Below, in pieces: positions 17,332 to 63,100 of a DNA stretch of 64,000 nucleotides (within the stretch, counting starts at the first letter, position 1; the number at the start of each line of letters is the position of its first letter). The DNA is from Glycine soja (taxonomy: Eukaryota; Streptophyta; Magnoliopsida; Fabales; Fabaceae). The notes beneath the pieces are model-generated. The model was not told the DNA's origin. It saw only the letters and a program-made list of their open reading frames with translations, and did no database searches. Made by a program: the position numbers and the translations under genes. The stretch lies in the NCBI RefSeq assembly GCF_004193775.1, contig NC_041004.1, positions 36,914,411 through 36,978,410 on the forward strand, read 5' to 3'.

Positions 17332-19365
17332 ATGGTCCACTATCACCGCTCCCATCAACCCAGAAAGGCCAACAACACAGACTCCATCATCAAAGACGAA
17401 GAGTCACAGAACAACATCACGTTGGATTGTTCATCCTCTGCTTACTACAAGAGAACAAGGCCCAAGTTGTTGTCTTTTCTCTTCCTCATCACCTTCCTCT
17501 CTTGCTGCTATGTTTTTGCTCCTCTTTTCCTTGGCCCTTCTTTCCCTCTATCTCTCTTGTGTAAGCACCTAATTCCATGTTCCTTCTTTTTTCTTTCTCT
17601 CTTTCTCTTTGTTACTATTTGTGCTGATTTTCTTTTCTTGCTTTTCAGACTCTCCCGCAACTGAAAATGATTTGAAACAAGATGGGGTTGGTGCTAATGA
17701 TTCTCCATGCTCTTCTGTTTCTACTGGTAAGTATTATTCCTGTTCCTTTTCCTTCTACAATTTTTTTTTCTTTGCTTGTGTTGTTTGTTTTTTACGTGGA
17801 TTACCCAACATAATAATTGATAAAGGGTAATCATATCCATTTTCCTTGGTTTAGTTTATAGCTAACAAAATTAACTTGGCAAAGTAATGGAATTGGTGTG
17901 TTTGACTAAAGTTGTTGTTTTTTATTGATTGGCTTTAACTTTTAATATTTGACTTATTTTTTAATAATAAATTTTAGAAATTTAAGTTTGTTTTGTTGTT
18001 TGACTTGTTTCCGTGTTATTTGCTCCTAATAATGTTTTGTGCTTCTTTGATGTTTCAGGAACTATATGTTGTGATAGAAGTGGTTATCGTTCTGATGTCT
18101 GTGTGATGAAAGGTGATATAAGAACACACTCTGCTTCCTCTTCGGTCTTCCTCTACAATTCAAGGAGCAACAACAATGTTTCGAGAAATTTTGAAGAAGA
18201 ACTCCAACATGAAAAGATCAAGCCGTATACTAGAAAATGGGAGACAAGTGTTATGGACACCATTGATGAATTAAACCTCATCTCGAAGAAAGTGAATTCA
18301 GGTAGTGTTGGAGGTTGTGATGTCCAACATGATGTTCCAGCAGTGTTCTTCTCAAATGGGGGCTACACTGGCAATGTTTATCACGAATTCAATGATGGAA
18401 TCGTACCCTTATACATTACTTCTCAGCATTTCAAGAAGAAGGTTGTGTTTGTGATTCTTGAGTATCATAATTGGTGGATCATGAAGTATGGAGATATCCT
18501 TTCTCGCCTATCGGATTTTCCGCCAATCAATTTTCAAGGAGACAATAGAACTCATTGCTTCACAGAAGCAATAGTTGGTCTCAGAATCCATGATGAGCTA
18601 ACTGTGGATTCTTCATTGATGAGGGGTAACAAGAGCATTGCTGATTTTAGAAACCTTTTGGATAAAGCTTATTGGCCAAGGATCAAGGGGCTGATTCGAG
18701 ACGAAGAAAGGAAAGCACAAGAGAAATTGAGAGAACAAGTCTCTTCATCTGAATCATCAGAAGCCTCACAACAACAGTATATAACTATTAGGCAACAAGT
18801 GCAAGAAAATCCAATGAAGAAGCCTAAGTTGGTTATTCTTTCTAGAAGTGGTTCAAGAGCTATAACTAATGAGAATTTGCTTGTGAAGATGGCAAAGGAA
18901 ATTGGGTTTTTGGTGCAAGTTTTGAAGCCCGACAGAACAACAGAAATGGCAAAGATTTATAGGACTCTCAATGCAAGTGATGTCATGATTGGTGTTCATG
19001 GAGCAGCTATGACACATTTTCTGTTCCTGAGACCTGGTTCTGTGTTTATTCAAGTGGTTCCTCTTGGTACCACATGGGCTGCAGAAACTTATTATGGGGA
19101 ACCAGCAAGGAAGCTTGGATTGAAATACATTGGCTATCAAATTTTGCCTAGAGAGAGCACTTTGTATGAGAAATATGATAAAAATGATCCTATTCTGAGA
19201 GACCCTACAAGCATTAACAAGAAGGGGTGGGAATACACAAAGAAGATCTATCTTGACAGCCAAAATGTCATGTTAGACCTCAGAAGATTCAGAAAAAGGT
19301 TGCATCGAGCGTATGAGTATACACTCTCCAAATCAAAACTGAGTCTCCAACATCAACCAATGTGA
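17332..19365 (+). CDS. Glycosyltransferase family 61 (DUF563) type II membrane protein, 3 exons
   Basis: Probable Golgi enzyme that adds a pentose or similar sugar to cell-wall xylan or N-glycans; GT61 members include xylan arabinosyl-, xylosyl- and beta-1,2-xylosyltransferases. Exons are 17332-17560, 17649-17726 and 18059-19365 (GT-AG, phase 1 at both junctions), 537 aa. A basic cytosolic tail (residues 1-45) precedes one hydrophobic anchor (about 46-76) and a short lumenal stem. The catalytic part contains DVPAVFFSNGGYTGNVYHEF, KLVILSRSGSRAI and the family hallmark GVHGAAMTHFLFLRPGSVFI, then a QVVPLG segment. Length and layout are normal for plant GT61. A Ser/Gln-rich insert (about residues 320-345) lies before the second Rossmann half. 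ATG 17332 is chosen because it is the first ATG in this frame and gives the expected short cytosolic tail. The donor sugar and acceptor cannot be read from sequence. Confidence 0.88.
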
Positions 19366-48103: not shown

Positions 48104-48121
48104 TTACTAGTCGGTAACCCG

Positions 48122-48421
48122 AGAGGGCGAGCCCTGGTGCAGCGGTAAAGTTGTGCCTTGGTGACTTGTTGATCATGGGTTCGAATCCGGAAACAGCCTC
48201 TTTGCATATGCAAGGGTAAGGCTGCGTACAACATCCCTCCCTCATAGTTTTGGAGGGCGAGCCCTGGTGCAGCGGTAAAGTTGTGCCTTGGTGACTTGTT
48301 GGTCATGGGTTCGAATCCGGAAACAGCCTCTTTGCATATGTAAGGGTAAGGCTGCGTACAATATCCCTCCCCCATACCTTCGCATAGCGAAGAGCCTCCG
48401 GGCAATGGGGTACGAAGTTTT
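48122..48421 (+). mobile_element. Au-like tRNA-derived SINE dimer
   Basis: Two head-to-tail units (48122-48251 and 48252-48421) each carry a pol III A-box region (TGGTGCAGCGGTAAAGTTGT), a B box GGTTCGAATCC and the body segment GGTAAGGCTGCGTACAA; only the second has the full tail ending in T6. That body and the T-rich end resemble the plant Au SINE family. The pair is flanked by a perfect 18-bp duplication TTACTAGTCGGTAACCCG (48104-48121 and 48422-48439), so the dimer inserted as one unit. The first unit lacks about 40 bp of 3' end. Confidence 0.87.
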
Positions 48422-48435
48422 TTACTAGTCGGTAA

Positions 48436-48453
48436 CCCGTGCATACGCACGGG
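48436..48453. other. Helitron terminal hairpin
   Basis: CCCGTGCATACGCACGGG forms a stem of seven pairs with a four-base loop. Together with the duplicated CTAG at 48425-48428 it preserves the original Helitron 3' end inside the SINE's right-hand target duplication. Confidence 0.8.
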
Positions 48454-48564
48454 TCGTTTCGCTAAATGATTTTTAATGAAAGAATTAAAAAAAGGTATTA
48501 TAAAAAAAAGCAAAAACACTAACATTCATATATTATTATTATTATCATCATGTAGGCTTTGAGT

Positions 48565-48683
48565 TCCTTAAAAAAAGGATGCACTTTGGGACTTTATTCT
48601 TCAACTGAATCCTATTGTTGCAACCCTTGCATGGACAAAGCACCCTCACCTTCAACACCGTCGTTGTTACTGCAGGCTGTTCC
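48565..48683 (-). pseudogene. Possible heavy-metal-associated (HIPP-like) gene fragment
   Basis: The - strand frame reads PAVTTTVLKVRVLCPCKGC, which resembles the start of plant heavy-metal-associated isoprenylated proteins (VLKV...C.GC). The metal-binding spacing is changed and nothing downstream continues the domain. Held as a weak call inside the Helitron. Confidence 0.35.
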
Positions 48684-49165
48684 AAAAATCAAATCACAAA
48701 AAAACAGTCCAAAACAAGTAAACAGAATGAAGATCAGAAGAGAACTCTATCATAAACAGAAAATCCAACACACACAATACATTTCGATTTTCAAAGCAAA
48801 CTCACTGATCATTTGATATTGTGATTCTCTTGCTCCATTGCGCCCGCCAAAGATGCAACACACTTGTTGGGAACAATAACTGTGCCTATTTATTTACGAA
48901 AATAGAATTAAAATATCAAAATAACGAAAATAGAAGATGGATGAAAGTCGGAGAAAGAAAATATTAACGAAAAGAGAGAGTAATAAGGAAGAAAAAGAGA
49001 TACATGGAAGAAGAGAAGATTCAAGATTTGAGCCAGATTATTAAGCGAAATTAAATGAGAAGTTGAAATCCGCCAATTGGAGAATGACACACACCGGGAA
49101 TCTCAAAGAAAAATCTCAATGTTCACTCCGGGCATTACAACATAAAAAAGAGCCTTCAGCCAGAA

Positions 49166-49166
49166 C

Positions 49167-49257
<91 letters not shown>

Positions 49258-49258
49258 A
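49166..49258. repeat. (AAT)n(AAC)n microsatellite
   Basis: A run of AAT units turns into AAC units. It starts a block repeated at 53442-53665 within the same Helitron. Confidence 0.95.
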
Positions 49259-49379
49259 ATTAAATAGAATCATAATCCAGCTTCCTGCAACAACAACAAA
49301 TTTTATGATTTAAAATGTAAAATTGCAGTATAATATAAACAGTATAAATAACAACATACTTTTGGAGGCTCCAATAATT

Positions 49380-49416
<37 letters not shown>

Positions 49417-49545
49417 CATTTCATGTATGGGCACAACAGGTACATCTCTTTTGTTAGATAGTTTGTTGCAGGAAGCTGGATTAGGATTCTATTTAATTTT
49501 ATTGTTGTTGTTGTTATTATTATTATTATAATGATAATAATAATA
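49259..49545. repeat. Helitron internal repeat, direct and inverted copies
   Basis: The segment ATAGAATCATAATCCAGCTT...TTTGGAGGCTCCAATAATTG (49259-49380) recurs directly at 53538-53661. An inverted partial copy lies at 49465-49500, followed by GTT/ATT repeats in inverted order. The copies share the border with AAT/AAC microsatellites, suggesting rearrangement through those tracts. Confidence 0.8.
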
Positions 49546-49689
49546 ATAATTATTATATTAATTTTCATTTTATATAAAATAATTATTATTATATTAATTT
49601 TCATTTTATATAATGTACGTGTTGTGCATGAACATTTTTGTTTTTGTGATTCTGATGGTTGTGTGATTATTTGTTTAAAAGGCTGCATT

Positions 49690-49990
49690 AGGTTCTCCTG
49701 AGGACGGCATCACGACTCGCGAGCTCCGAGCCTCACCTTTTCAGAGACGGAGATGGTGAGATTCCGACAAAGCGATGAGAGAGAAAATTGAAGTTGCGCT
49801 TTTTAGAGAGAGAAGTTTTGTTTTGGTTTTAGAGAAGGAAGAACACGCTTCTGAAGAAGGAATATGTAAACGATAATACAAAAAAATGGGTTTTCGGACA
49901 TGGGAGGAAGCGTAATGGGTAGTTAAAAATCCACCAATCAAGGAGTCACATGTGGTTGGGGCAATAGGAAAAAAATGATGTAAAAAATGG
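49690..49990 (-). other. Possible captured promoter/5' leader segment
   Basis: Read on the - strand, this block is pyrimidine-rich (CTTCTCTCTCT, TTTTCTCTCTCATCG), less AT-rich than its surroundings and free of a recognisable frame. It ends in a plausible donor AAAAG|GTGAGG. It looks like a host gene leader with a first splice donor, but the gene cannot be named. Confidence 0.3.
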
Positions 49991-51647
49991 ATGTAAAACA
50001 AAGTTATTATTTATAGTATTTATTTTAGGAAAAGATATAGTATTAGAATTATAAGTTATTTTTTTATAATATTATATATATTTTAGTATTGTTATATATT
50101 TATTGTTTTTTAGTATTTAATAGTTAATATTATTAATATATATGAATAAGATAATATTAATAAATAAAACTAAGTTGTATTAGTATAAATAACTTATTTA
50201 GTAGTAATAAATATATGCCTTTCTAAAAAATTAGTCATTAATAAAATTGATTAATATTTTATACTAATGCAATGTTATGGTGACTAAAAAACTAAAAAAA
50301 ATTAAAACATCTCTATTTTTAAAATTATTGTATAAAATAGATTAAAAAAACAAAAACACAATCAAACATGTCTTGAAATTGCCTTTTTTAAAAAAATTGA
50401 TGTAAAACCATTTGAAAGTGAGGTAAAATTAATGTAACTCAATTTTGGTCAAATTTGCTTTGTTTTTAAATTTTAATTTGTAACTATTCTGAAAAATAGA
50501 TCGATAATAATTAATTGAATTTGTGAAGATTTTAAATAGAAAATTAGAATTTAGAATTCTAGATAGAAAAACACCACAAAACTAAATCTGCTTCATTTTA
50601 AAAATAAGTGAACTAAATTAGTTAAATAAATTTGAGGTTATACTTTTTCTTTAAAAAAATATTCAAGAGGTTATACTTTTCCTTTTTAAAAAAAAAACTC
50701 AAGAGGTTATACTTTTCCTTTTAAAAAAAAAACTGACGAGGTTATACTTTTATGCTGCAATATGAGCAAGGAACGTACTTAAGATAATGTACTTAACACG
50801 CTGTTGTTATTTGTGAATTATTTTAATTATTCTTATATCGATTAGATAAGTAGCTATCTCTTGTCTTGAAGGTACACGCTTAACACAATTTCAGTTGAAT
50901 ATTTTCCACAATTTATATTATTCATACAATACTGTTAAAAACACTTATTTGCCTCTCTTTTTGTTATCTTTATTGCATCGCTAATCACAAACTTTTCTTT
51001 CTTTTCTTCTCGTCTCTCTTTTCTTTTATACAGAAGTTGTACAAAAACAAACTACGGTTATCATTTCTCATTTTCAGCATATTTGTGTTACTGTGGTGCG
51101 ATGGAAATGCGGCTTACTACCTTTTCCTTTTATATAATTCATACTAATGTGAATTATTGACTTTATCTACGTGAAATCATGAAAAACATTATAACTTCCA
51201 TGAATAGTAGCTAGACTTAGCAAGACTTTTTGGTTTAGGAATGGCAGTGATGTAGTCTATATCTAACTTTCTCTAATTTAATTTTAGTCATTTCTTGATT
51301 TTTAAAAAAACTGCGGGAAACTCGTTCATTTCCTCTGCTTTGATTTTGATTTGATCACTTATGTTTCTAGATAAAGTGAGCATAGCTCAAGTTTCTTAAA
51401 GGAATATATTACTAGTAATGAATAATTAGTCCTGATTCATATGTTGTCAAGTAAAAGGTAGAGGCAGACTTTTAGAAACAATAACATAGAAACAAATACT
51501 TTTCATGCATTTTAGGAATAGAACAAACAACAATACTTCTATCCCAATTCCTGAAAATATAAAAACACGGACAAATTTCTTTGCGTGAAAATGACACTCA
51601 CACCATACACTCCCATTGAGAAATCAGAACATAATGCATCAAACATT

Positions 51648-51836
51648 TCAAGCCTTAAGAGTCTCATCATCATCATCTTCAATGTCCCAGCTCAAGTCTT
51701 CCTCTTGTTCCGTAGCGCTAAGCCGCTTCTGCAAATCAACTTTTCTTGCGCCACCACCACTCTACTGCCTTGTTTTATTTTCATCAATACTGCTAAGATC
51801 CTCAATGTCATCCCACTGAAGGTCCTCCTCCTCCTC
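51648..51836 (-). pseudogene. Captured last exon of a BSD-domain protein gene
   Basis: Starts after an acceptor AACAG and stays in one frame for 63 codons to TGA: acidic repeats, DLQWDDIEDLSSIDENK, then VDLQKRLSATEQEEDLSWDI and an Asp-rich end. This is the conserved C-terminus of plant BSD-domain proteins. One internal TAG (codon 25) breaks it, so it is a decayed capture. It lies on the same strand as the Helitron. Confidence 0.78.
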
Positions 51837-52261
51837 CTGTTATGAGAAAATAATCGCTTTGTTGTAAAATGTTTTTTCTGGATTATTAGTCTCCTAATGC
51901 AATGTTTGACAAAATGAGAAACATAACATTAAAAAATATGGTGTTTTGACCAGTATATTCACGATATTGATTCAGAAATCAGTACTTGAAAAAAAAATTA
52001 AAAACCAAGTTAGAGCATTTGATATCCTTGGTTTAATTGTCATTCACTTAAAATAATAATAATAAACAATATAAATACTAACCTGCCACAAACCCAGACA
52101 AAACTTTAATGTCCAAACTCCAAACCCCCAAATAAAAAGATTTTAGATAAATACAACAACTCCTTACAATAACTTTGAGAGATACTCAGAGAATAAATTA
52201 ATTTCATTATCTAATTTTAAAAGTAAGAGGGCTCTATAAGAAATTAACATGTTAGTTTTAC

Positions 52262-52405
52262 CTGGCCAAGCATTGCAGCTTCTGCTTTTATTCCACCAAC
52301 TCCCCATCCAGCAACACCAAGACCATCAATCATAGTTGTGTGTGAATCAGTTCCCGCCATTTGTGTTGAACACAACTCTACCAAGGTATTCTAAATTAAC
52401 TTGCA
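52262..52405 (-). pseudogene. Captured aconitase exon fragments with internal deletion
   Basis: The - strand reads [15 protein letters not shown] and then, in another frame, [20 protein letters not shown] followed by [11 protein letters not shown] and an intact donor CAG|GTAAAA. In real aconitase the two parts are separated by a short segment with the sense LYPDSVV, which is missing here, so the join is a deletion that shifts the frame. The second part includes conserved active-site residues (Ser and His of the SHTT motif). Confidence 0.88.
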
Positions 52406-52895
52406 AAATTATAATCACAAAACTTGATTCAGAAGACAAATTTGAATCACAGGATGATTTTTTTTTCATTGTATGTAAAATTAAAATTATTCTAAATATA
52501 AAAGTATCGCCAACTCTTTCACCTTCACAAATTCTTCGGCCATATTGGAAAAGGCTCGCAGAGAAAAGGAAGGTTGAATTTTTTTTTAATAAAAAAATAG
52601 ATACCAAGCTGCAGTGAAAGAAAAAGAAAAAGAAGCACGTACATCATATAAAATATCGGAAAATGCTCGCAGAGAAAAGGAAGGTTCAAAAAAATAATTT
52701 AAAATCAAATACTAAGCTGCAGTGAAAGAAAAAGAAACACGTACATCATATAAAATGAAAATTAATCCAAGACAAATTTTCATCTCTTCACATAAAAAAA
52801 TATATATTATGCAGAAAAATATTAACTTGCCAAGTCTTCACAGCACGGTCAGTGATTTCATATGAGTTGTAGAAAAAGAAAAAGAAAATAAATAC

Positions 52896-52968
52896 CTTTG
52901 GGGCGATCGAGGGTTATGACAGCGACACCATTTTGATGAACAGAGCCCTTCACAAATTCTTCGGCCAT
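52896..52968 (-). pseudogene. Captured first exon of 3-hydroxyisobutyryl-CoA hydrolase-like gene (intact copy)
   Basis: 73 nt from ATG to a good donor (CAAAG|GTA): 24 codons including [20 protein letters not shown], the start of the enoyl-CoA hydratase/HIBYL-CoA hydrolase fold in plants. No stop or frameshift. Further exons are absent, so it cannot encode an enzyme. Confidence 0.8.
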
Positions 52969-53323
52969 AGCGGAAAATGCTCGCAGACAAAAGGAAGGTC
53001 GAAAAAAAAGTTTGAAAAATTAGATACCAAGCTGCAATGAAAGAAAAAGAAAAAGAAGCATGTACATCATATAAAATAACGGAAAATGCTCACAGAGAAA
53101 AGGAAGGTTGAAAAAAAATATTTAAAAATTAGATACCAAGCTACAGTGAAAGAAAAAGAAAAAGAAGCACGTATATCATATAAAATGAAAATTAATCCAA
53201 GACAAATTTTCATCTCTTCAGATAAAAAAAATATATTATGCAGAAAAATACTAACTTGCGAAGTCTTCACAACACTGTTGATGACTTCATATGAGTCGCA
53301 GAAAAAGAAAAGAAAGAAAATAC

Positions 53324-53377
53324 CTTTGGGGCAATGCCGTTTTGATGAACAGAGCCCTTCACAAATTCTTTAGCCAT
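53324..53377 (-). pseudogene. Second, deleted copy of the hydrolase-like exon
   Basis: 54 nt with ATG and donor retained, but 19 nt shorter than the other copy: the part encoding VAVITLDR has been lost. A third trace with only the first seven codons lies at about 52523-52543. Confidence 0.78.
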
Positions 53378-53441
53378 AGCGGAAAATGCTAGCAAAGAAA
53401 AAGGAAGGTTGAAAAACAGTCATGGTCACTTGACTTGAGTA

Positions 53442-53538
<97 letters not shown>
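53442..53538. repeat. (AAT)n(AAC)n microsatellite, second copy
   Basis: Same AAT-to-AAC transition and same right-hand flank as 49166-49258. Confidence 0.95.
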
Positions 53539-53640
53539 AATTAAATAGAATCATAATCCAGCTTCCTGGAACAACAATAAACTTTATAATTTAAAAAGTA
53601 AAATTGCAGTATGAAATAAACAGTATAAATAGCATCATAC

Positions 53641-53708
53641 TTTTGGAGGCTCCAATAATTGTGTCCTCAGTTTTGCTAGTTTTGCCTTGAGCTGCCCGAG
53701 ATGATACT
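53641..53708 (-). pseudogene. Captured exon of DRG-type GTP-binding protein
   Basis: 68 nt between acceptor CTCTGCAG-type and donor AAAA|GTATGA. It reads YHLGQLKAKLAKLRTQLLEP then PK, the strongly conserved segment just before the G1 box in developmentally regulated G proteins. It is uninterrupted, but only one exon is present. The donor end is also present in the duplicated block near 49360-49380. Confidence 0.87.
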
Positions 53709-53917
53709 CTGCACAAAATTTATGATTTAAAAGAAAAAGAAAAAGATAAAGAAAGAAGGAAATACCTAAATAGGTTTATTGTTATCAAAGCAAGCATGAT
53801 GAAATTCTAGGCATTATTCTGAAAGTCATTATTCTATTATGTGCATTCACACAAATATCAAAATAAACATTTCCAACAAAATATAAAATTAAAACTTAAA
53901 AGTATACAACAACTTAC

Positions 53918-54016
53918 TCCTCCATTGGCCAAAGCAATGGCCATGATTGTTGCAGCTTCCATGACCCATGAAAGAGGATTCCACATAAATCCTAAAAACT
54001 TCAAAACCTTAATCTT
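53918..54016 (-). pseudogene. Captured exon of plasma-membrane H+-ATPase (second fragment)
   Basis: 99 nt, 33 codons, uninterrupted: [20 protein letters not shown] followed by [11 protein letters not shown], ending at donor GGA|GTAAG. This is the first transmembrane region of P-type (AHA) proton pumps. It follows the exon at 54407-54492 in the correct order. Confidence 0.9.
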
Positions 54017-54406
54017 CTGCAAAATTCATACAAAAGCTCTGCATAGAAACTAAACCTGGAAGTAGAAACCAACTTTCAATTAAGACAAGAATAACTCTCT
54101 TTCAAAGTTCTCCTTCAAAGGAAAAAAACAATTCTTTCTTATTAACCAAGAGTTCATAATATCATATCATGCCTGTGTCAGATTTTGATAACCTCCCTTT
54201 CTCTCTCTCTCAAGTCTCGCCTTCTTTTTCTGTTTTTTTTCCTTTCTATCTTTCTTTTCCTTTCACCCCTCAAAATGGCTGTACTTTACATTTTCCCATC
54301 AAATAATAGAGAAAATGGTATGTTTCACATCTGCTAATTCAAAGCATCTTTCCACACTGAAGAGTGAAAAAAGAAAAAGAAAAAGGAAAAAATTGAAGGG
54401 AAAGAC

Positions 54407-54492
54407 CTTCTTCTCCTCAAGTTTGTGGTGGCCAAAGATGATCAGCCTCTCCTCAGTAGATTCTGGAAAACTTCCTCAAGTGGCACGATTTC
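54407..54492 (-). pseudogene. Captured exon of plasma-membrane H+-ATPase (first fragment)
   Basis: Between acceptor TTTGCAG and donor AAG|GTC. Reads IVPLEEVFQN and, after a small deletion and frame change, STEERLIIFGHHKLEEKK. Both match the N-terminal cytosolic part of AHA pumps (IPIEEVFE... IFG.NKLEEKKESK). The donor joins in sequence to the next captured exon, so exon-intron-exon structure was captured as genomic DNA. Confidence 0.85.
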
Positions 54493-54499
54493 CTGCAAA

Positions 54500-55480
54500 G
54501 AGATTAAAAGGAAAAAATAATAAAAAAGAACAAAATAAAAAATAAAACCGTAATCCACACAAAAACTGAGGAAATTTGCCAAAAAACAGAACAGAACTTA
54601 AAACTTCCAACACCAGGAACATAAAAACAAAACCCAGAAACACTCATCAATCCCATGCTTACTACTCTTATTTTTCAACTGCAAAAAAAAAAAAGGTAGA
54701 CATGAATGATATGGCGGCAAGAAACACATCATTGACCAGTGAAGCAGAACGTAGTAATATCTTGGAACATAATACCTGCCGTAGCAAAAAAATAAAGTAA
54801 AAAACATTAGCTACCAAGCTGCAGTGAAAATGTTCATATCCTTTTTATTGTTATGCTAGAAAAAAACAGCAACAGTAACACTTTTTTCCTTATTGTTTTT
54901 TTACCTGCAACAACAAAAAGCAATAGAGTAGTAATGCCTTGGAACATAATACCTGTTGTAGCAAAAAATAAAATAAAAAACATTAGAAAAGCAAACATGC
55001 ATGAGAACGAAAACCAAACATCCATGAGAACATCAAAAACACCAAACAAACAACCATGAATTACCAGGAAAACATCAATAACAGGAAGCAAAAGTCAAAA
55101 CTTCTCCACTCAACAAAAAATGGACAACAACAAAGGGACCAAAAACACAGAAAAATGAGAAGTTAACATGGATGAGAACAAAAATAAAACATGCATGAGA
55201 ACAACAGGGAAAGAAAAAAAAAACTCATACTGTCAACAAATCATTTCCTTACAGCTTCAATGCAAAGGGAAAACCATCTTGGCCCTTTAACAAATGGGAA
55301 TGGAAGCTCCTAAAATTATCCTCAGAACCTGATCAAGCAAAAAAAAAAACTCGTACTGCCAACAAATCTAAAAGAACCTGAAGAAGCAGAAAAATAAAAA
55401 AAAGATTCGAAGAAGCAGAATGCTAGAAATACCTTGGCAGCTCTGGTTGTAGCTCTAGACCAACGGGAAATGGCACTTGA
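54500..55480. other. Helitron 5' portion, unidentified
   Basis: Short A-rich stretches with repeated CTTGGAACATAATACCTG motifs (about 54761 and 54939) and no protein I can name. The block 55480-55680 is similar to 48890-49090, including ATGAGAAGTTGAAATCC, so the two ends of the Helitron share a duplicated segment. Confidence 0.5.
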
Positions 55481-55839
55481 GGGAAATAAAAAACAAAACA
55501 AATATGAAATACAGTTCCGATTGAGGAAGAGAAGGAGAAGATTGAGGAAGAAAGAGTAATGTGGAGAAGATTGAGGAAGAGAAAAAGAAATGTGGCGGAC
55601 GGAGAGAGAAGATAATTCCGATTATTAAGTGAAATTAGATGAGAAGTTGAAATCCACCAGGAAACGACACATAGTTGTGACAACAAAAAAAATGGTACCA
55701 AAAAAGAGAGGGACAATATGACCAAAAAACCCAAAAAAGTGACACATATCAAAATTTTAGATAGAAACACAACAAACTTTTCGAAGTACTTCTCTTTTAT
55801 TAGTTATTAGATAAGTATATAGAAGTATATAGATATAGA

Positions 55840-60100: not shown

Positions 60101-63100
60101 GTTATTTATGATCAACCACAAAACACCAAACTTATCAATTTTTTAGCTGGTCCAATTTTGTAAGATCAACCGTCTATTCTTCGCTTAAAATAATAGTAGA
60201 ATATCCATATGACTTTTATAAAAAAAAATCCATGTGACATGGGTGGCCATCTGTATTTTTTTAAATAGTAAGATACCTGTGAATTCACTCCATTATTGAT
60301 ACATATTTGAAATATATTTGTTTTATGAAATTAAATTATTGTATTAAGTTTTTAATATTAAAAAAATGAGTGTTTAAACAAAAAAAGTATACTTAGTTAT
60401 AGTCTCACAAACATTTCTCATTTTATTTAAAATATTTACAAAATTGTATTGAAAATTGATACTTAAAAATTTAAAAGAAATTTAACTTATGTATATTTCT
60501 TGAATTTTCAGTCCTACGTGGCACAAGAGGAACTTTTCTTGGGTACTTTGACTGTAAAAGAGACCCTCACATACTCGGCAAACATAAGGCTTCCTTCTAA
60601 AATGACCAAAGAAGAGATAAACAAAGTGGTGGAAAATACCATAATGGAAATGGGTCTGGAAGATTGTGCAGATACTAGGATTGGAAATTGGCATTGTAGG
60701 GGTATTAGTAATGGTGAAAAGAAGAGACTTAGCATTGGACTTGAAATTCTGACACAACCATATGTCTTACTTCTTGATGAACCTACTACTGGACTTGATA
60801 GTGCCTCAGCTTTCTATGTGGTTCAATCTCTATGCCACATTGCTCACAGTGGAAAGATAGTTATCTGTTCTATTCACCAGCCCAGTAGTGAGATTTTTAG
60901 TCTGTTTGATGATTTGCTTTTGCTCTCAAGTGGGGAAACTGTTTATTTTGGAGAAGCAAAGATGGCTCTAAAGGTAAACAGTTTGACTTTAACTATGCAT
61001 GCAAAGTTGGATTCTAATTTTATTAGGGATAAGATATTTTAGTTGTTTATGTTTTTAATTATATTTAGTTTGGTCTTTTATCTCTTAAAAAAACTAGTTA
61101 TTTATCTTTTTAAAGTGAATCAAAACGTGCTTTTGAAATAATGATTTTTTGATTTTGGAATATGACTTTGAATTATGTTTGGACTAATTCAAGAATAAAA
61201 CTTGTCCGGTTAAATTTGCTTACATGAAAACTATGGATCCCTAGTGATGTTTGAACCAAAAAGAGAACATAAATATAATAAAAATCACCTAAAAAATGAG
61301 TTGAAAAAAAAAATCGATAATATATATTTTTTTTAATTTTTCGATTGCTTATTAGTTTCACTTTTGATGTAATTTTTGTCATGTTTATAGTCTTTTTTTA
61401 TAACGGGATATTTAATAGTTTTCATATACCTAAGTTTAATAAGACAAAATTTTCACATTTTAAATTAATAAAAAAGTGTCAAATAAATGAAGGATCATTT
61501 TGACACTGTTAAAAAATACAAAATGACTAAATTGAACTTTTTATAAGACAAAATGTCAAACTAAATATAATTGAAAACACTAAAAGTATATTTTAACCTA
61601 AAATTAGCTGAAACTTTGTCTCTAATTGAATTTTGGGAGAAGTTTTTTGCTGATGCAGGTTTCCCCTGCCCTACTAGAAGAAATCCTTCAGATCATTTCC
61701 TTATGTGTATTAATTTGGACTTTGAGTTGATTACTGAAGCACTACAGAGGACACAGTTAAATTTGGTATGTATGGGATGTTGGAACCTTTTTTTCCTTAC
61801 TTTTGTTTTTGATTAACAATGCTTTTGAATGTGAATTTTATTGTTCTCATTGACAGATACCAACAAATTCAACAATTGGAATGAGAACATCAGAGATCAG
61901 AAGGATACTCATTCAGAGTTACAAAAGTTCAAAGCTAATGATCAATGCAAGAAAAAGAATTGAACAACTGAAACCCAATGTAATAATTTGTTAGTCAGTG
62001 TTTATCATTCATACCTTAGTTATCTCGTATTTATCTGCATCTGAAAACCAGTTTACTGTTTGAGTACAAGATCACTTAATATAAAGCATAGAAAAATTTT
62101 GTTGCTTCATGAATCCTGGGTTGAGCATCCTTTTGGAGAAAAATTGAAGAACTAACCCATTTAATAAAATTCATTAATCCATTTTGAGCAACATACAATT
62201 TAAAGAAAAAAAAAACTATATTTCCCCTTTCTTATCTTGTTTTAATTAAAAAATTGTTCTATATCTTACTGATCTCAGAGATGCAAATATGTAGGAAGAA
62301 CAAGAAATTAAGCCCTACATAGGTAGCAGTACCACATGGAGGAAGCAATTATGTACATTGACTGAGAGATCTTTCCTAAACATGACTAGGGATATTGGTT
62401 ACTACTGGCTGAGGATTGTATTCTACATACTGGTAGGAATTACTATTGGCACCCTCTTTTTTCATATTGGCACAGGCAACAACTCAATCTTGGCTAGAGG
62501 AAAGTGTGTATCATTCATCTATGGGTTCATGATTTGTTTGTCATGTGGAGGATTACCATTTTTCATTGAAGAATTGAAGGTAAAAATATAATGGTTCCTT
62601 TTACTCAAAAGATATAATACAAGATTCATACTTTCCATTCTCTTTTGTATCTAATCACAATGAAAATCAGGTTTTCTATGGTGAAAGGTCCAAAGGACAT
62701 TATGGAGAGGCTGCATTTGTAGTGTCAAACATCATATCTTCATTCCCTTTCCTTGTTCTAACATCACTCTCCTCCGGAATAATCATTTACTTCATGGTGC
62801 AATTTCATCCGGGTTTATCTAATTGTGCATTTTTCTGTATCAACTTATTCTGCTGCCTATCTGTTGTTGAGTGCTGCATCATGATTGTTGCCTCAGTGGT
62901 CCCCAATGTGCTGATGGGCATAGGAACAGGAACTGGTGTAATTGTAAGCAAACCATTTTTCTCAGCTTCTGAAATAATAACATTTAGGTTAAACTATTGA
63001 TTTGGTCTCTATAATTGTTTTCACTTTAAGTCTTTAACAAGAAAACTACAAGTTTTAGTCCCTACACATGCATAAAAATTAAGTTTTGATTCTTATTGCT

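Follow-up and report, generated by a model that had tools for sequence, protein, structure and literature searches.

The stretch analysed here, which we call the window, comprises 64,000 nucleotides of the Glycine soja genome (contig NC_041004.1, C3 in our numbering, C3:36914411-36978410). Positions 48107 to 55839 of the window hold a non-autonomous Helitron, which lies on the minus strand and carries exon fragments from at least five donor genes. We consider it very probable that this locus belongs to a Glycine family of Helitrons with common ends, whose members take their cargo from one shared set of captured exons. Common ends, a recurrent exon order, a common deletion and a composite anatomy are the observations that carry this reading.

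Ends of the element

On the minus strand, the element starts with TC at 55839, and CGGGTTACCGACTAG terminates at 48107; the insertion site lies between a host A and a host T. The outer ends show no terminal inverted repeat (TIR) and no target duplication of at least 2 bp. Because the 5′ end reads TCTATATCTATATACTTCTATATACTTATC, with TC candidates at 55839 and 55833 that both have an A before them, the 5′ terminus may be either of these positions, an ambiguity of 6 bp. There is no long open frame inside the element or in twelve sibling pieces, and for this reason it is classed as non-autonomous. Two protein searches with the peptide SSAISRWSRATTRAAK (near 55446-55493) gave no match assignable to it. 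The features of the two ends are as follows:

48107..55839, minus strand: whole element, TC to CTAG; host A precedes, host T follows; 5′ start alternatively 55833
55564..55839, minus strand: Helitron 5′ terminal and subterminal region, from the 5′-end search of the genome and comparison with other 5′-end loci
48106..48121, minus strand: outer 3′ terminus of the Helitron, with CTAG and half of the hairpin; this would be the target duplication of a SINE-like insertion (SINE, short interspersed nuclear element)
48122..48423, plus strand: SINE-like dimer, two tandem 130-bp units inside the 3′ hairpin, from repeat comparison and genome relatives
48425..48454, minus strand: complete Helitron 3′ terminus, hairpin plus CTAG, T next
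48593..48685, minus strand: CPCKGCNN segment near the 3′ end, with a weak Transpos_assoc likeness under the Pfam cut-off

An earlier note, made from the letters of the window, had proposed Helitron termini here (5′ TC, 3′ hairpin plus CTAG, insertion between A and T), and all of these are present. The intact hairpin, however, does not adjoin 48107 but is at 48425-48454, and only half of it stands at 48107. Why should the terminus be represented twice? The complete hairpin (48434-48454) plus TACCGACTAG terminates at 48425, with T next, and the 16-mer ACTAGTCGGTAACCCG occurs both at 48106-48121 and at 48424-48439, bracketing two tandem 130-bp units, the second of which bears a T-rich tail. This arrangement reads as the entry of a SINE-like dimer into the 3′ hairpin with duplication of a 16-bp target; the inner 3′ end would thereby have stayed complete, with half of the hairpin at the outer one. 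These 16 bp are the only target duplication detected. The dimer has many relatives in the genome (at least 50 among the matches listed), and neither a tRNA nor an Rfam scan had a hit in the SINE-like stretch. The dimer may be an Au SINE; a literature search pairing that name with soybean returned passing mentions only.

The genome search for other elements with matching ends, whose failure would have counted as a refutation in the earlier note, turned up many loci with such ends in the assembly. For the 3′ end, the best 40 of 116 candidates were scored and 30 loci were read, the window's own included. CTAG|T is found in 27 of these 30 (26 of the 29 others, in agreement with the termini proposed), and the remaining three have CTAA or no recognisable end. 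For the 5′ end, the best 40 of 104 candidates were scored, and the exact start A|TCTATATACTATC is present in 15 of 29 other loci. Nine siblings were picked for having both ends or the cargo block detected; all nine start with A|TCTATATACTATC, as does the C19 copy, and on their 3′ side six have CTAG|T, one has CTAA|T and two are without a 3′ end in the fetched span. The siblings combine both end kinds, at a spacing of 4-15 kb. Of the 29 other 3′-end loci, 15 also have the CPCKGC segment close to that end. A scan of viral contigs for the Helitron 3′ end found none.

Captured exons

In the direction of the element, the cargo runs from two H+-ATPase exons through a DRG exon, three tandem exons like those of 3-hydroxyisobutyryl-CoA hydrolase (HIBCH) and an aconitase exon to the C-terminus of a BSD-domain protein. 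The earlier note had named these five donors and had put fragments and element on one strand. Each donor is matched by protein or DNA comparison, and the fragments of all five are on the minus strand, within 51.6-54.5 kb:

54405..54493, minus strand: plasma-membrane H+-ATPase exon 1, with an internal deletion
53918..54017, minus strand: plasma-membrane H+-ATPase exon 2 (protein match alone, E 1.5e-11)
53641..53709, minus strand: DRG GTPase exon that has an acceptor AG but no longer a donor
52522..53416, minus strand: 3-hydroxyisobutyryl-CoA hydrolase-like 3 exon, three tandem copies about 423 bp apart
52262..52377, minus strand: aconitase exon with a 23-bp internal deletion, native donor and intron ends on both sides
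51650..51836, minus strand: C-terminal fragment of a BSD-domain protein with an in-frame TAG, beginning inside an exon and extending into the 3′ untranslated region (UTR)

Joined, H+-ATPase exons 1 and 2 match Arabidopsis AHA2 (E 1.1e-22); exon 1 alone has no match in the PDB. The DRG fragment (~53641-53709) matches yeast Rbg1 at E 0.0045, and its DNA is 99% identical to two loci. The middle HIBCH-like copy agrees with the model GLYMA_08G040000v4 in 30 of 30 residues; this exon alone has no true PDB relative, and a k-cTRP5 row in its PDB search was dismissed as repeat-driven. The aconitase fragment matches PDB entry 3sn2 (E 3.2e-13) and Pfam family PF00330 (E 1.8e-12), being the only one of ten peptides to pass the cut-off in a first Pfam scan; pentatricopeptide rows in its PDB search were likewise set aside as repeat-driven. 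The residues ELCSTQM, once taken as filler, are the aconitase exon read out of frame past the 23-bp deletion. For the BSD C-terminus, the match is a BSD protein of Glycine soja (85%, E 6.6e-21). Since the fragment is closer to the C10 gene (92%) than to the C2 gene (87%), its capture appears to be later than the divergence of these two gene copies.

The earlier note had also claimed native splice sites for several fragments, and here the outcome is mixed. Comparison with native genes covers aconitase and BSD; the sites of the HIBCH, DRG and H+-ATPase fragments are given as present. Of three aconitase-like loci treated as the native genes, two have the donor of the captured exon, CAG|GTAAAAC. 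The aconitase acceptor has one base changed relative to these three loci, and the AG at the BSD fragment is not a native acceptor, because the captured piece starts within an exon.

Relatives sharing the cargo and composite anatomy

The segment 49710-53511 is colinear with a stretch of contig C1, with 3431 of 3635 aligned bases identical (94.4%). Beyond this shared block, the C1 copy matches the element in short pieces only, and the flanks differ. The order HIBCH-aconitase-BSD recurs on C1, C17 and C19, with a partial BSD match in the C17 copy. The captured aconitase exon lacks 23 bp relative to three native-like loci, and this deletion, scored wherever the search pattern located the stretch (seven element copies and the three native-like loci), is present in 7/7 readable element copies and in 0/3 native-like loci. 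The contrast supports the view that aconitase would have been captured once and then spread.

The other cargo is shared as well. The DRG exon and H+-ATPase exon 2 are adjacent in reverse order at many other loci, and loci near family 3′ ends hold several DRG copies, a partial H+-ATPase segment and sometimes aconitase arrays. Eight aconitase exons form an array at C10:13314354-13318441 and four at C15:21102619-21105655; HIBCH exon arrays are found at C10:30366092-30368587, at C9:27487511-27489551 and elsewhere. In 23 clusters that combine an end with a gene module, the strands agree in all 23 and the expected order holds in 22. Such counts of modules and clusters are lower bounds, as they come from the best 40 candidates per search and from clustering on part of the matches.

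Within the element, further features point to a composite:

48976..49075, minus strand: diverged second copy of the 5′ subterminal region, 73% (compare 55564-55659)
49167..49381, minus strand: left-hand unit of a 215-bp direct repeat; it contains (TAA)n(CAA)n and the DRG exon's 3′ end
53448..53662, minus strand: right-hand unit of the 215-bp repeat (94%)
49710..53511, minus strand: block colinear with contig C1 (L079 1608-5463)

The 215-bp direct repeats bracket most of the block shared with C1. The simplest reading of this anatomy is that pieces of related Helitrons were joined, perhaps by recombination or by hairpin bypass.

Some side observations may be placed here. Immediately outside the shared block, the C1 copy has a long imperfect palindrome (L079 1370-1600). 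The minus strand of 49660-50010 holds a promoter- and 5′UTR-like stretch, also present in the C1 copy. Neighbouring frames in the window have a glycosyltransferase 61 domain (18004-19365) and an ABC transporter domain (60467-61042).

Chimeric gene models

All captured exons, in element order, were used as a protein query, and the best 120 of 1222 proteins were considered. Among these are four Glycine max predicted proteins built from the same parts. In P0170 (125 aa), HIBCH, aconitase and BSD parts share a single frame; P0175 (124 aa), which bears the name Aconitate hydratase A, combines HIBCH with aconitase; and P0279 and P0289 join DRG with H+-ATPase exon 2. By eye, the last two also hold a phosphatase-like stretch. 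Chimeric joins, which the earlier note had thought possible, are thus seen at the level of annotated protein models. In the window, joining 52968-52896, 52377-52262 and 51877 onward gives a frame of 124 aa, with GT/AG at the exon joins. As 122 of its 124 residues match P0175, this model is probably the G. max counterpart of the window locus. If the acceptor at 51836 is used instead, the frame runs into BSD and stops after 87 aa at the TAG; the C1 and C19 copies have Q where the window has this TAG and so read through. Some soybean "genes", including the Aconitate hydratase A model, seem better explained as Helitron cargo.

Origin of the element and alternative explanations

We infer the enzymes involved, the age of the element, the order of capture and its neutrality in the following way. 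An autonomous relative would provide the RepHel protein that copies one strand, from TC to hairpin-CTAG, and inserts it between A and T. The gene pieces would have been gained stepwise, since family members carry different subsets of them. Once captured, pieces would have increased in number through local tandem duplication and been reshuffled between elements by recombination or nesting. The window copy would then consist of the 3.8-kb HIBCH-aconitase-BSD block, a DRG/H+-ATPase segment and a 3′ portion from an older Helitron. The SINE-like dimer would have split the 3′ hairpin afterwards, an intact 3′ end remaining inside by virtue of the target duplication. Most likely, the element is neutral cargo that gene predictors take for genes.

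Several observations weigh against an origin as a single family Helitron. Fourteen of the 29 other 5′-end loci are without a clean terminus. Among them is the C17 sibling (L043, near 1694), in which the hairpin-CTAG end of another Helitron stands in place of the TC stretch. For the C1, C17 and C19 siblings no 3′ end was seen, and in the one cluster that departs from the expected order (C20:5355848) the 5′ end is on the wrong side. Rep/helicase was not found in the element or in the twelve sibling pieces, where the longest frame has 255 codons; no genome-wide RepHel search was made. In addition, a search with the joined flanks for an empty site matched only the window's own two flanks.

Could 55839 and 48107 be the ends of two different Helitrons, nested or head to tail, that never formed one mobile unit? 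The second, diverged 5′ subterminal copy at 48976-49075, the 215-bp direct repeats around the shared block and the extra TCTATA units at the 5′ terminus would all fit such a history, and nested Helitrons with several termini are described for maize in the portion of PMC3288121 consulted. We nevertheless find it improbable, for the element contains no second clean terminus of either kind, and siblings pair the same two end kinds 4-15 kb apart. A gene-carrying TIR transposon, CACTA or Pack-MULE, in the manner of Tgm-Express1, deserves mention because soybean has a CACTA element with five gene fragments (according to the part of PMC1947982 available) and because 48593-48685 weakly resembles a CACTA-associated domain. 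The outer ends, which have no TIR or target duplication, and the recurrence of Helitron ends across the family leave this explanation with next to no probability.

A different question is whether the cargo is functional, that is, whether HIBCH, aconitase and BSD exons are spliced into a selected protein. The three parts in frame in P0170, the near identity of P0175 to the window frame, the GT/AG at the joins and the read-through in the C1 and C19 copies speak for it. On the other hand, P0170 and P0175 are predicted models that use different BSD frames, the window frame entering BSD stops after 87 aa, and no full domain is present; we regard a functional chimeric gene as very improbable. It is tempting to go further and picture the Glycine Helitron family as a device for exon shuffling that multiplies a few donor exons in tandem and recombines them from element to element, with at least one product, the in-frame 125-aa HIBCH-aconitase-BSD chimera on C1, being expressed and selected; this we hold to be very improbable. 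A non-autonomous family Helitron with neutral cargo remains the reading that we prefer.

Comparison with known systems

Multi-gene capture by Helitrons is well known in maize, and gene-capturing maize Helitrons have reportedly been surveyed in PNAS. No description of the Glycine Helitron family was found among the open-licence papers that the literature searches listed. The common ends and the common diagnostic deletion indicate that Helitrons captured and re-amplified pieces of several genes in a legume too, a process best described in maize, and the recurring exon pool should make the order of capture reconstructable. As far as the excerpts at hand go, SoyTEdb holds 82 Helitrons and defers captured genes to later work (PMC2830986), a common bean library holds 39 Helitrons (PMC4093653), and a gene-capture review from 2026 mentions maize and Brassica as hosts of Helitron capture (PMC13317346).

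The earlier note had called such capture notable in a legume. That claim is weakened by Tgm-Express1, a soybean CACTA element at wp with five captured gene fragments and chimeric transcripts (PMC1947982, in the part available). The two elements are alike in genus, in the number of fragments and in having captured splice sites. They differ in that Tgm-Express1 is a TIR transposon with other donors and demonstrated transcripts (same source), whereas the chimeras discussed here are predicted protein models.

With Helraiser/Helibat1, the window element shares TC/CTAG ends and a hairpin near the 3′ end. Helraiser is a reconstructed autonomous bat element with RepHel whose mechanism was tested, the capture of flanking DNA by hairpin bypass having been demonstrated for it (PMC4778049, in the portion consulted), whereas the mechanism proposed for the window element is deduced. 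The closest parallel is with maize, where, in the sections of PMC3288121 at hand, single Helitrons carry fragments of several unrelated genes (0-12 in helA). Like the window element, these have TC/CTAG ends, several unrelated fragments and stepwise capture, and, like the Glycine family, they show fragments in different combinations and nested elements with extra termini. The Glycine family differs from them in its host and terminal sequences, in a cargo that often forms tandem exon arrays, and in that most of its recurrent cargo comes from about five donors.

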